The position numbers were made by a program, and so were the translations under genes. The notes beneath the pieces were generated by a model that was given only the letters and a program-made list of their open reading frames with translations, searched no databases and was not told the DNA's origin. Of a DNA stretch of 28,248 bases, positions 5,871 through 18,134 are shown piece after piece (positions within the stretch are counted from its first letter, which is position 1; each line of letters opens with the position of its first letter). Source of the DNA: Mitosporidium daphniae. Taxonomy: Eukaryota > Microsporidia. The stretch is taken from NCBI RefSeq assembly GCF_000760515.2, contig NW_013546163.1:1-28248 (forward strand). Reading direction: 5' to 3'.

Positions 5871-6021
5871 TAGCAACGTAAGTGTCAAACCATATGGAAG
5901 AATTGTAAAAAATTAAGGCAAAAAGTAAATTTTATTGGGCCGCAAATTCAATATAACCCGGTCTCCTCATATGACACGTGAGTCATGATACGCAGTGCGT
6001 CATTCATCTAGAAATAAGCAA

Positions 6022-6098
6022 GTATTTCAGAATATGCCAGCAGGCGGTTGAACCATGAATTGCTCTTAAGACCGTCGTGATAATAGTCATCATAATTG
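6022..6098 (-). ncRNA. Box C/D snoRNA candidate F
   Basis: Box C ATGATGA lies at 6093-6087 and box D CTGA at 6030-6027, inside a GTGAG...TTTCTAG intron (6105-6008). The terminal stem is weak (ATT/AAT plus GTA/TAC). Upstream of box D, CTGCTGGCA (6043-6035) is antisense to TGCCAGCAG of the universally conserved small-subunit rRNA 530-loop region. That match is only 9 bp and its spacing to box D is loose. No clear D' box is visible. This is the least certain member of the cluster; its position in an intron with C and D boxes in order is the main support. Confidence 0.55.
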
Positions 6099-6251
6099 TA
6101 CTCACCTTTTACAAATGTACATGCACGGCTGGCAGTTCCGGAGAAACTCAGCTGACAGGCTCAATTGATATTTTGTGAGCTGGCTAAAGCACTCTCAAAG
6201 GAGATTATGCGATATGGGAAACGGTCTATTTTGCAAAGTATGAGGATTGCC

Positions 6252-6329
6252 TAAGTCTCAGCAAAAATACAACATCATGGAAATGAATCAGACATATGCT
6301 TGTCTCTTATTTTTTTCGTCATCAACTTA
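6252..6329 (-). ncRNA. Box C/D snoRNA E: guide for SSU rRNA A28 region (snR74/SNORD27 type)
   Basis: A TAAGT/ACTTA terminal stem encloses box C TTGATGA (6325-6319), box D' CTGA (6291-6288), box C' ATGATGT (6278-6272) and box D CTGA (6261-6258). The 14-nt element GAGACAAGCATATG (6306-6293) sits one base upstream of D' and is perfectly antisense to CATATGCTTGTCTC near the 5' end of eukaryotic 18S rRNA. Counting five bases from D' selects the A of CATA. In yeast numbering this is A28, the known target of snR74 (human SNORD27). The match and boxes are seen in the sequence; the rRNA sequence and homologue names are from memory. Confidence 0.9.
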
Positions 6330-6368
6330 CTAAAAGTAAGAAAGCTAGAAAGAAGGGATAATAGTTGT

Positions 6369-6445
6369 TTTGTCAGACAGCATGAATGGATATTGTGTTA
6401 TTTCATCATCATGAAATATGGCTCGTCATCTTGTCATCATTCAAA
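6369..6445 (-). ncRNA. Box C/D snoRNA D: double guide for one LSU rRNA segment
   Basis: Terminal stem TTTG/CAAA encloses box C ATGATGA (6440-6434), an internal C'-like GATGATG (about 6410-6404) and box D CTGA (6376-6373). Two antisense elements are visible. AGATGACGAG (6431-6422) is complementary to CTCGTCATCT, and ATCCATTCATGC (6391-6380) to GCATGAATGGAT. Both targets lie about 20 nt apart in the conserved 25S/28S stretch that contains the yeast Um2417/Um2421 sites (snR66/snR78; human SNORD52 region, from memory). D' is degenerate, so the exact modified base for the first element cannot be assigned. Confidence 0.82.
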
Positions 6446-6542
6446 TGTGAAGAAAGAAACTTACCTTTAATTAGTAGCACACTACATAAGAACTGCTTGT
6501 GATGATGGGTTCCCAAAAGCTAACCCCAGGCAATTCTAAAAT

Positions 6543-6614
6543 AAGACTCGGCCAAAAAGTATCATCAAATGAAATATCAGCACCCAGTGCTCAATTGTTG
6601 TACATCATTGTCTT
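6543..6614 (-). ncRNA. Box C/D snoRNA C: LSU rRNA guide
   Basis: A perfect AAGAC/GTCTT terminal stem encloses box C ATGATGT (6608-6602), D' CTGA (6580-6577), C' GATGATA (6566-6560) and a degenerate box D CCGA (6551-6548). Upstream of D', GAGCACTGGG (6592-6583) is antisense to CCCAGTGCTC of the conserved 25S/28S stretch that continues TGAATGTCAAAG. By the five-base rule the target is a C of the CCC run, which would agree with the snR64-type site. The stem begins one base inside the GTAAGAC splice donor, so donor and snoRNA 5' end overlap. Confidence 0.78.
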
Positions 6615-6654
6615 ACCTATAAGTAAGATGATGATGATGAGAATGGAAAATGAT

Positions 6655-6740
6655 CGTATGTCAGAATAGCCGCAAAATTTCATCACTAATCAGCCGGTAA
6701 TTCCAGCGTATAACGTATGATAGCAATCATCATTCACACG
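6655..6740 (-). ncRNA. Box C/D snoRNA B: guide for SSU rRNA 530-loop U (snR77/SNORD65 type)
   Basis: A CGTGTG/CATACG terminal stem (one G-U pair) encloses box C ATGATGA (6733-6727), D' CTGA (6693-6690), C' GTGATGA (6686-6680) and box D CTGA (6664-6661). The element GCTGGAATTACCG (6707-6695) is perfectly antisense to CGGTAATTCCAGC, one of the most conserved stretches of 18S rRNA. The fifth base from D' pairs with the U of CGGU, equivalent to yeast Um578 (snR77) as I recall. A second guide upstream of D (TTGCGGCTATT) is not assigned. Confidence 0.88.
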
Positions 6741-6782
6741 AGAAAACGGGTAGGATTCATACCTAAGCATAAGGAAATGCAA

Positions 6783-6861
6783 TCAAAGTCAGAATATAAA
6801 TGAAAATCACTAGATTCAGATACTCTAGTCCGAATATATATAGTTGTGCATCACTCCTTGA
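6783..6861 (-). ncRNA. Box C/D snoRNA A: probable LSU rRNA guide
   Basis: A six-pair terminal stem TCAAGG/CTTTGA (one G-U) encloses box C AGTGATG (6855-6849), D' CTGA (6819-6816), a C'-like GTGAT and box D CTGA (6792-6789). Upstream of D', GGACTAGAGT is antisense to ACTCTAGTC of the LSU stretch GAGCTTGACTCTAGTC, with possible extension through a wobble pair. The match is shorter than for the neighbouring snoRNAs, so target assignment is tentative although the box and stem architecture is complete. Confidence 0.75.
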
Positions 6862-6941
6862 ATGATTCCTACCTTTGGTTTGATAAAAAATTAGTAATCT
6901 ACAACTCTTACATTAAAAATACCAGGGTCCTCACACAATGC

Positions 6942-17196: not shown

Positions 17197-18134
17197 TTAA
17201 CCCAATTCTAGCTTTTCTGAAATTGGAGAATTTCTGGGATCAGACCCCTCTATGATGGGGGGAGATTGACGATGGAAGCGAGAGTAATATATGCATTGGG
17301 AAAGGAGGATTCCTTGACTTGTTCCGCTAATTAAATATGAGATCCACATCGAGTAGTCGCTATCCGGCCTCAATGCCAAGGAGACAATCAGAAGAAAGGT
17401 GCCTGGAGTTTGGAGCGCCATTGCAGGGATACTGAGAGCGCCTACCTCTTTTATTTTCCACGTTTTATAGATTTGAGGTGCACATTGGCAAGTTGTTAGA
17501 ATCAGCGAAATAAACCCAAGGATCCGGGCCCATCGCAAAAGCAGCGTTTCCGGAGATGCAGCGAATAGTTTTATGCAAATTGAGATTGTCGAAATGGAGG
17601 CAAGAAAGCACAAATTGATCATCAGTAAGAAGACAAGTTTACGCCACTCACGACCATTAATTCTGCATTCTCGCGGGAAATAAATAATGTAAAGCGCATA
17701 CCTGCAAGTGAGGTTAAAAATATCCACTTACAGAAAAAAAAACATTGAAACTTGAGTAAGAATCTGGGCAAAGCCAAGCATTCGTAACATACATGTGACG
17801 ATGTTCTGGGGAAAACAGAAACAAGCCTTTTTACCTCCTGGATACAGCAAATAAATAGGGACCATTGGATGATTATTGAAGTTACTAGCGTACTTGAGCT
17901 GCTACAAACTCCGAGCAGGAAGTAGTAGTGGGAATAGCCCGTAGATGAGCGTAGCTTTATTATTCTATAATGCTTTGTAGTGTGGAAGGAACAACTGCGT
18001 ACCTTCGGCGCATATGAACAAATAACTGCCAAAATCATAAATACGGATAAGATGTTGACCCAAAGGGAAGCAATCTCTCCGTCCCCACATTGAGGATTAT
18101 CTTCAAAGTTCAGATTGGAGGAGAACGTTCCCAT
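17197..18134 (-). CDS. PQ-loop repeat membrane protein, copy 2
   Basis: Exons are 18134-18003, 17972-17835, 17805-17732 and 17701-17197; introns are 30, 29 and 30 nt; product 282 aa. The motifs are CSYAPKHYRIIKLRSSTGYS and CQCAPQIYKTWKIKEVGALS, so the first motif has PK instead of PQ. It is the convergent neighbour and paralog of copy 1: the first three introns fall at the same motif positions and phases (0, 0, 2), and exon 2 is exactly 46 codons in both. The fourth intron of copy 1 (in VPG|S) is absent here (TPGTF uninterrupted). ATG 18134 lies just after a possible 5'-UTR intron acceptor (CCCTATAG). Confidence 0.82.

Follow-up and report, generated by a model that had tools for sequence, protein, structure and literature searches.

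Introns that carry snoRNAs and follow one another without exons have been reported in Ascomycota. The available text of Luo et al. gives at least 61 exon losses for the Ascomycota clusters I–III, where juxtaposed introns are left without exons (PMC3596301). Among 42 EST products of cluster III, 18 lack intron I only, 14 lack introns I and II and 10 lack all three, and the EST and RT-PCR data fit stepwise 5'-to-3' splicing (Luo et al. 2013, PMC3596301). A second study, in the text available, describes two modes of splicing for Candida cluster II, one nested (exon of negative size) and one recursive (exon of size zero), with RNA-seq data and two pathways via a common G, and lists an exon of size zero in Debaryomyces cluster III after Luo et al. 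(PMC5033589). The first-pass annotation of the locus studied here had held that no such case is described; given the zero-length and overlapping exons reported in Ascomycota snoRNA clusters, this is wrong, and the kind is already known (PMC3596301, PMC5033589).

The window, 28,248 nt in length, is the whole of contig C105 of the Mitosporidium daphniae assembly (4.66 Mb, 147 contigs), an organism placed in Fungi, Microsporidia by the NCBI taxonomy. Its PTPA protein (219 aa) is 99% identical, over 95%, to a protein of M. daphniae, whereas the second-best match reaches 53% over 58%. On its minus strand, from about 6930 to 5930, six candidate box C/D snoRNAs lie between splice-site-like signals. 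They follow each other on one strand in the order snR78-77-76-75-74-73, as in fungal cluster I (snR76 is placed by position and guide, and snR73 is weak), for which the published order is snR78-77-76-75-74-73-72 (PMC3596301, text available in part). The clustering had been noticed before and is supported by the six C/D candidates (Rfam matches, with one assigned by position and guide), whereas the conserved cluster I order had gone unmentioned. No recognisable copy of snR72 was found at the locus, either by eye or among the matches listed in a permissive Rfam search; according to the accessible part of PMC5033589, snR72 is missing from cluster I in other fungi too. From the sequence, we consider it likely that the locus represents fungal C/D snoRNA cluster I in a non-coding host gene. 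This gene has probably lost exons from its interior, which leaves introns A, B and C back to back and introns D and E with one G in common, and the spliceosome would remove these introns stepwise. The predicted anatomy is as follows.

6873..6930, minus strand: putative first non-coding exon, ending CCAAAG|; its 3' end is taken from donor 6872 (score 5.9)
6763..6872, minus strand: predicted intron A, 110 nt, with a snR78-like snoRNA at 6787-6858; donor 5.9, acceptor 9.0, branch CTTAT
6762..6763, minus strand: abutting CTTAG|GTATG, exon size 0 (sequence, profile scores, shuffles, removal-order simulation)
6617..6762, minus strand: predicted intron B, 146 nt, with snR77 at 6653-6739 (Rfam snoR77Y and 18S guide)
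6616..6617, minus strand: abutting TATAG|GTAAG, exon size 0 (sequence, profile scores, shuffles)
6536..6616, minus strand: predicted intron C, 81 nt, with a snR76-like snoRNA between snR77 and snR75; acceptor 12.1
6465..6535, minus strand: exon 2, 71 nt, possibly intronic in part or as a whole, with acceptors inside at 6482 and 6465
6330..6464, minus strand: predicted intron D, 135 nt, with snR75 at 6371-6445; donor 7.6, acceptor 12.5
6330, minus strand: G common to the D acceptor TTTTAG and the E donor GTAAGT, exon size -1 (sequence, simulation)
6251..6330, minus strand: predicted intron E, 80 nt, with snR74 (= U27/SNORD27) at 6254-6327 (Rfam and fold)
6106..6250, minus strand: putative exon 3, 145 nt, between acceptor 6251 and donor 6105
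6008..6105, minus strand: predicted intron F, 98 nt, with a snR73 (= U35)-like snoRNA at 6025-6098; donor 5.9, acceptor 11.8
5930..6007, minus strand: last exon, with AATAAA at 5936-5931 (sequence)

The junction CTTAG|GTATG that had been claimed for 6763/6762 of the minus strand is exact to the base, with no nucleotide between acceptor and donor: the A/B junction reads TTATGCTTAG directly followed by GTATGAATCC, where G6763 closes the acceptor and G6762 opens the donor. The back-to-back sites at 6617/6616 are equally present, the B/C junction reading CTTACTTATAG and then GTAAGACA on the minus strand (TATAG|GTAAG), and so is the one-G overlap at 6330 (TTTTA(G)TAAG), where the D/E junction reads CTTACTTTTAGTAAGTTGATG on the minus strand and G6330 is common to AG and GT. 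The outermost donor is located at 6872 (CCAAAG|GTAGGA) and a TTTTAG acceptor closes at 6536, giving a span of 337 nt in total. A further candidate abutting AG|GT junction, absent from the earlier list, is found at 6465/6464. Profile scoring reveals the hallmark of exon loss at the locus, in that an acceptor abuts the next donor and is accompanied by a branch site and a donor consensus; a branch-like motif stands 6–7 nt before the end in the case of acceptors 6763, 6617 and 6536.

Exon 2 is uncertain because of the further acceptors at 6482, which scores 12.0, and at 6465, which scores 9.3 and has a TACTAAT branch. If intron C ended at 6465, the C|D boundary would become a third zero-length exon. 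The acceptor of intron E at 6251 is weak (7.9, CTGAG) and has no canonical branch site. Acceptor-like sites scoring 9.8 to 12.5 also occur away from the junctions, at 6899, 6907, 6869 and 6686, and an additional upstream intron at 6911-6873 is possible, with a donor of 6.9 and an acceptor of only 8.1. We discarded an earlier end of intron D at TTCTAG (around 6346), which is absent among the acceptors scoring at least 7, and also an H/ACA snoRNA in the 145-nt or 71-nt exon, for which there is no supporting same-strand Rfam match and where the folds are no better than shuffles. Just 5' of the putative first exon lies a stretch, AATTTTAAATTTAAATT, that looks promoter-like by eye. About 60 nt 3' of the last exon begins a coding sequence that we take, by eye, to be Rab GDI-like. 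Elsewhere in the window, at about 1095-1200 on the minus strand, we noticed by eye a short tandem repeat, AAGGCCAGCAAGCCCRGTTTA, 3' of a GHMP kinase gene.

At gathering thresholds, Rfam gives no match in the whole window, and the snoRNAs are visible solely in a permissive search. This search of 1.1 kb yielded 25 listed matches that are mostly weak and all below the curated cut-offs, among them snR78 (E=0.009, below gathering), snoR77Y (E=9e-6), snR75 (E=1.8e-6, 39.7 bits versus a cut-off of 40), SNORD27 (E=4e-7) and, weakly, SNORD35 (E=0.21). All five are on the minus strand. When 65 kb were searched, SNORD27, snR75 and snoR77Y were retained at E values of 2.5e-5 to 5e-4, and snR78 did not reach E 0.5. 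The correspondence of U27 to snR74 and of U35 to snR73 is that of a Neurospora table (PMC2780460, seen in part). For introns A, D and E, the snoRNA identity is that of the Rfam match alone, and the snR76 family is not among the 25 matches listed.

Guide sequences bear on introns B and C. The guide in intron B comprises 13 nt antisense to the 18S rRNA in record L028, which had been picked for its LSU sequence, and is positioned 1 nt before CTGA; other parts of the introns give chance antisense matches of 11–14 nt to the same rRNA records. The guide in intron C, GAGCACTGGG, has 10 nt, ends 2 nt before CTGA (the D' box) and matches the LSU rRNA of three records in antisense, but since the pattern used to fetch these records already contains its target site, the match says no more than that this string belongs to eukaryotic LSU. 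Presumably, the guides of introns C and B address precisely Cm2197 and Um578, and we likewise assume that CACGACGGTCT in intron F is antisense to a 25S motif. In yeast, the sites served by snR76 and snR77 are 25S Cm2197 and 18S Um578, respectively, according to the text available of PMC5199042. Two conserved rRNA patterns have no match in the M. daphniae assembly itself. The three records used, L026, L027 and L028, are eukaryotic rRNA inside bacterial MAG records (an endosymbiont of Escarpia, Pseudomonadales and Cytophagales), which is probably contamination.

We simulated the removal of introns A, B and C by script in all six orders. Every step presents a donor in an AG|GT context and the product is always identical. 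Simulation of the D/E pair shows that either order of removal restores the broken site and that both yield AATTAAAGCAATCC. Removal of A and then B would re-form the upstream donor each time (CCAAAG|GTATG and then |GTAAG). With D removed before E, the G that ends exon 2 would re-form the E donor GTAAGT; with E removed before D, the G that begins exon 3 would re-form the D acceptor TTTTAG. Each lariat would then be debranched by Dbr1, and the debranched intron would be trimmed to the snoRNA that guides rRNA 2'-O-methylation. The genome encodes a DBR1 C-terminal domain (PF05011, E=1.4e-21, G000:C54), and the two stops within its frame could be explained by introns. The piecewise, recursive removal proposed in the first-pass annotation stands as the simplest reading, given that the computed removal is consistent with it in every order, and we infer that all predicted sites of the cluster would be used.

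The locus shares with the clusters of Luo et al. the gene order of cluster I, juxtaposed introns without exons and a proposed stepwise removal (PMC3596301). As far as its available text goes, the fungi surveyed there are Ascomycota, Basidiomycota and Rhizopus, with exon loss reported in Ascomycota, whereas the genome analysed here belongs to the Microsporidia lineage and has coding introns of mostly 22–35 nt (PMC3596301). The D/E overlap would work like the snR57-55-61 cluster II of Candida parapsilosis and its relatives, where a common G permits two pathways with the same outcome; the Candida cluster, however, contains other snoRNAs and has RNA-seq support, whereas the Mitosporidium junction is known from sequence alone (PMC5033589, text available in part). 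The D/E pair also resembles stwintrons, in that the G is common and removal of one intron completes the site of the other, but a stwintron has an internal intron that interrupts a splice element of the external one, whereas D and E are neighbours overlapping by one base (PMC8469720, accessible text).

The likeness to the ratchet points of Drosophila and vertebrates, on which the earlier interpretation had been modelled, is loose. Fly ratchet points likewise regenerate a donor from juxtaposed AG|GT, but in the available text of PMC8605326 they occur for the most part in long introns and depend on a cryptic RS-exon with a donor lying downstream; the junction at 6617/6616 has neither a long intron nor an RS-exon donor. 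The predicted introns of the cluster measure 80–146 nt, and no donor scoring at least 4.5 follows 6616 until 6482. After 6762, the sole donor scoring at least 4.5 before 6616 is 6739 (5.1).

We used an intron finder to scan 102 kb (204,432 strand-bases) for introns that restore long open frames, and we trained a splice-site model on 58 de novo introns of 22–42 nt out of the resulting 158 candidates. The training introns have GTANG donors, a yTnAy branch and mostly TAG; the set is noisy, as illustrated by PTPA (outside the training set), where the public model has an intron of 30 nt and the finder one of 66 nt. Predicted coding introns in the 102-kb sample are mostly 22–35 nt long, which is near the lower limit for spliceosomal introns, and their branch site lies 4–10 nt from the end in 38/57. 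Acceptor and donor of the junctions score, in bits, 9.0/6.8 at 6763/6762, 11.1/6.9 at 6617/6616, 9.3/7.6 at 6465/6464 and 12.5/7.6 at D/E. Donors 6762, 6616 and 6330 (6.8, 6.9 and 7.6) fall into the upper third of the training introns; acceptor 6763 (9.0) is close to their low end.

With thresholds fixed at the scores of the observed sites themselves (the lower score of each kind), the 902-nt locus contains three qualifying AG|GT sites, namely 6763/6762, 6617/6616 and 6465/6464. Of 5000 dinucleotide shuffles of the locus, 34 have one such site and none has two. By summed score, the three sites rank 9, 2 and 4 among the 547 AGGT sites in the 204,432 strand-bases. A model built without the window introns (42 introns) places 3/5 qualifying sites of the sample within the locus, and 3000 shuffles under this model give 21 with one site and none with two. 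At looser fixed thresholds of 8.0/5.5, the locus holds 3/7 sites with all introns or 3/10 without the window introns, and 58 of 3000 shuffles have one site and none has two. Since these 902 nt hold three of the five AG|GT sites that pass the thresholds across 204 kb of strand sequence, it is unlikely that they cluster here by chance.

That AG and GT stand side by side by accident is a reading to which we give next to no credence, even though the top of the 547 sites is an abutting AG|GTATG at 17701, which tells us that single AG|GT sites do occur elsewhere; the locus concentrates 3/5 qualifying sites in 0.4% of the sampled bases, and none of the 5000 and none of the 3000 shuffles has two or more. 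The site at 17701 lies on the minus strand, where a predicted coding exon starts AG|GTATG directly after a strong 30-nt intron, and it would be an option for resplicing in a coding gene. A more serious rival, albeit an unlikely one, holds that donor 6872 alone is used and chooses among acceptors 6763, 6617 and 6536, so that A, AB or ABC leaves as one lariat with one to three snoRNAs and the internal donors are relics or parts of stems. Luo et al., in the text available, name such a single-donor choice as possible for their own EST and RT-PCR data (PMC3596301), and donors 6616 and 6330 do lie within possible terminal stems of snR76 and snR74 (the fold contains the snR74 stem but lacks that of snR76). 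One would expect relics to decay, however, whereas the internal donors 6762, 6616 and 6330 score in the upper third, and the D/E overlap preserves both pathways, which would be unneeded for a dead donor.

A single ordinary intron from 6872 to 6536, from which nucleases free three snoRNAs while the AG|GT sites are incidental, appears very improbable. Intronic snoRNA gene clusters are known in rice and Drosophila (PMC2780460, text available in part), but against this reading stand three composite sites that coincide with snoRNA boundaries or lie close to them, when none of 5000 shuffles has more than one, and a branch-like motif 6–7 nt from the end at each of the acceptors 6763, 6617 and 6536. 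We see scarcely more than a slight chance that the snoRNAs are cut by RNase III from an unspliced polycistron, as in S. cerevisiae, with splice signals that are decaying. In S. cerevisiae, the cluster snoRNAs come from unspliced transcripts (PMC3596301, accessible text) and Rat1p and RNase III processing in this yeast is the subject of a title cited in PMC5033589. The splice signals of the M. daphniae cluster, however, do not fall outside the range that the training introns cover. The genome does contain an RNase III-domain protein, but only two PF00636 matches are reported, both in one 1761-aa frame, and this does not favour a yeast-like Rnt1 route, although it does not close it either. The frame is, by our own naming, presumably Dicer-like rather than Rnt1-like. 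Stepwise removal of abutting introns is the reading that we retain.

The branch sites chosen by the profile read CTTAY at 5/7 acceptors of the locus (6763, 6617, 6536, 6330 and 6008) versus 1/58 short coding introns (one-sided Fisher p 1.5e-5, a post hoc comparison made after the pattern had been noticed); for the third branch letter T alone, the numbers are 5/7 versus 14/58 (p 0.019). CTTAC is the reverse complement of the donor GTAAG. In the predicted fold of intron D, GUAAG pairs with CUUAC, and the predicted terminal stem of intron E, UAAGUU/GACUUA, takes in the donor. The donor GTAAGAC of intron C and its branch region GTCTTAT could form a terminal stem, which is absent from the MFE fold. 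None of the eight predicted folds clearly exceeds shuffles in stability (z -0.33 to 0.90; the boundaries of exon 3 and intron F were off by one base). A stem between donor and branch that prolongs the C/D terminal stem is possible, and the CTTAY observation may be new. As a rule for snoRNA introns, CTTAY was rejected: outside the cluster it is found in 2/5 of those examined (L017 and L022, not L004, L018 and L021; the branch sites of L004 and L021 were judged by eye), and CTTAC is therefore a tendency. It is conceivable, if rather improbable, that introns A-B-C-D-E form one exonless chain (0, 0, 0, -1, with C ending at 6465) in which each lariat would be pre-folded by pairing of the donor GTRRG with the branch CTTAY, the terminal stem would consist of the spliceosome's two recognition elements, and snoRNP assembly would be coupled to splicing.

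We searched the genome for similar arrangements. The pattern TAG|GTRNG followed by a C box and a D box has three matches (two overlapping at C78, and the A/B junction) versus two in the control, which is no excess; with an upstream D box, there are four matches, A/B among them, versus one in the control. The other three of these four, L006, L007 and L009, were rejected as exonless snoRNA junctions, as they have no snoRNA match. The pattern TTAGTAAG gives no match in the genome because its C-box form excludes even the site of intron E. A donor followed by a C box and a D box occurs 16 times in the GTAAG form versus 2 in controls, and 10 times in the GTATG form versus 2 in controls. Ten of the 12 GTAAG-form loci were put to Rfam (omitting L023, a duplicate, and L025, which is the window), and 4/10 have matches to C/D snoRNA families at E<=0.07. 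A snR75 pattern for relatives has no match in viral_contigs.

Several individual loci outside the cluster are candidates for intronic C/D snoRNAs: L022 (G000:C68:22817-22912), SNORD74-like (E 0.024), in a gene that is RPS23-like by eye; L018 (C51:1181), SNORD33-like (E 0.07); L021 (C64:5483), SNORD18-like (E 0.0065), in a gene that is nucleolin-like by eye; and L004 (8587-8654, minus strand), snoR1-like (E 4e-4), in a gene that is RPS3-like by eye. At L017 (1501-1714; G000:C44:20123 onward), a C/D-like intron, GTAAGT...CTTACCTTTAG, stops directly before a U14 match (SNORD14, E 3e-6), which would be exonic. This pair resembles the yeast snR190-U14 pair. It also resembles the mixed intron/exon snoRNA pairs of S. 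pombe described in the available text of PMC12508059.

In the open-licence literature, cluster I in Microsporidia is not named among the matches listed, and no paper joins Mitosporidium, intron and snoRNA. Judged from its sequence, the Mitosporidium locus is a deep-branching addition to the exonless snoRNA introns already known. If the pairing of CTTAY with GTAAG is real, it would offer a testable way for a terminal stem to help or time its own splicing. If our reading of the cluster is right, cluster I and exonless snoRNA introns extend to the Microsporidia lineage, exon loss would be either repeated or old, and the locus would suggest that longer introns are kept where they bear snoRNAs, in a genome whose coding introns are mostly 22–35 nt long.
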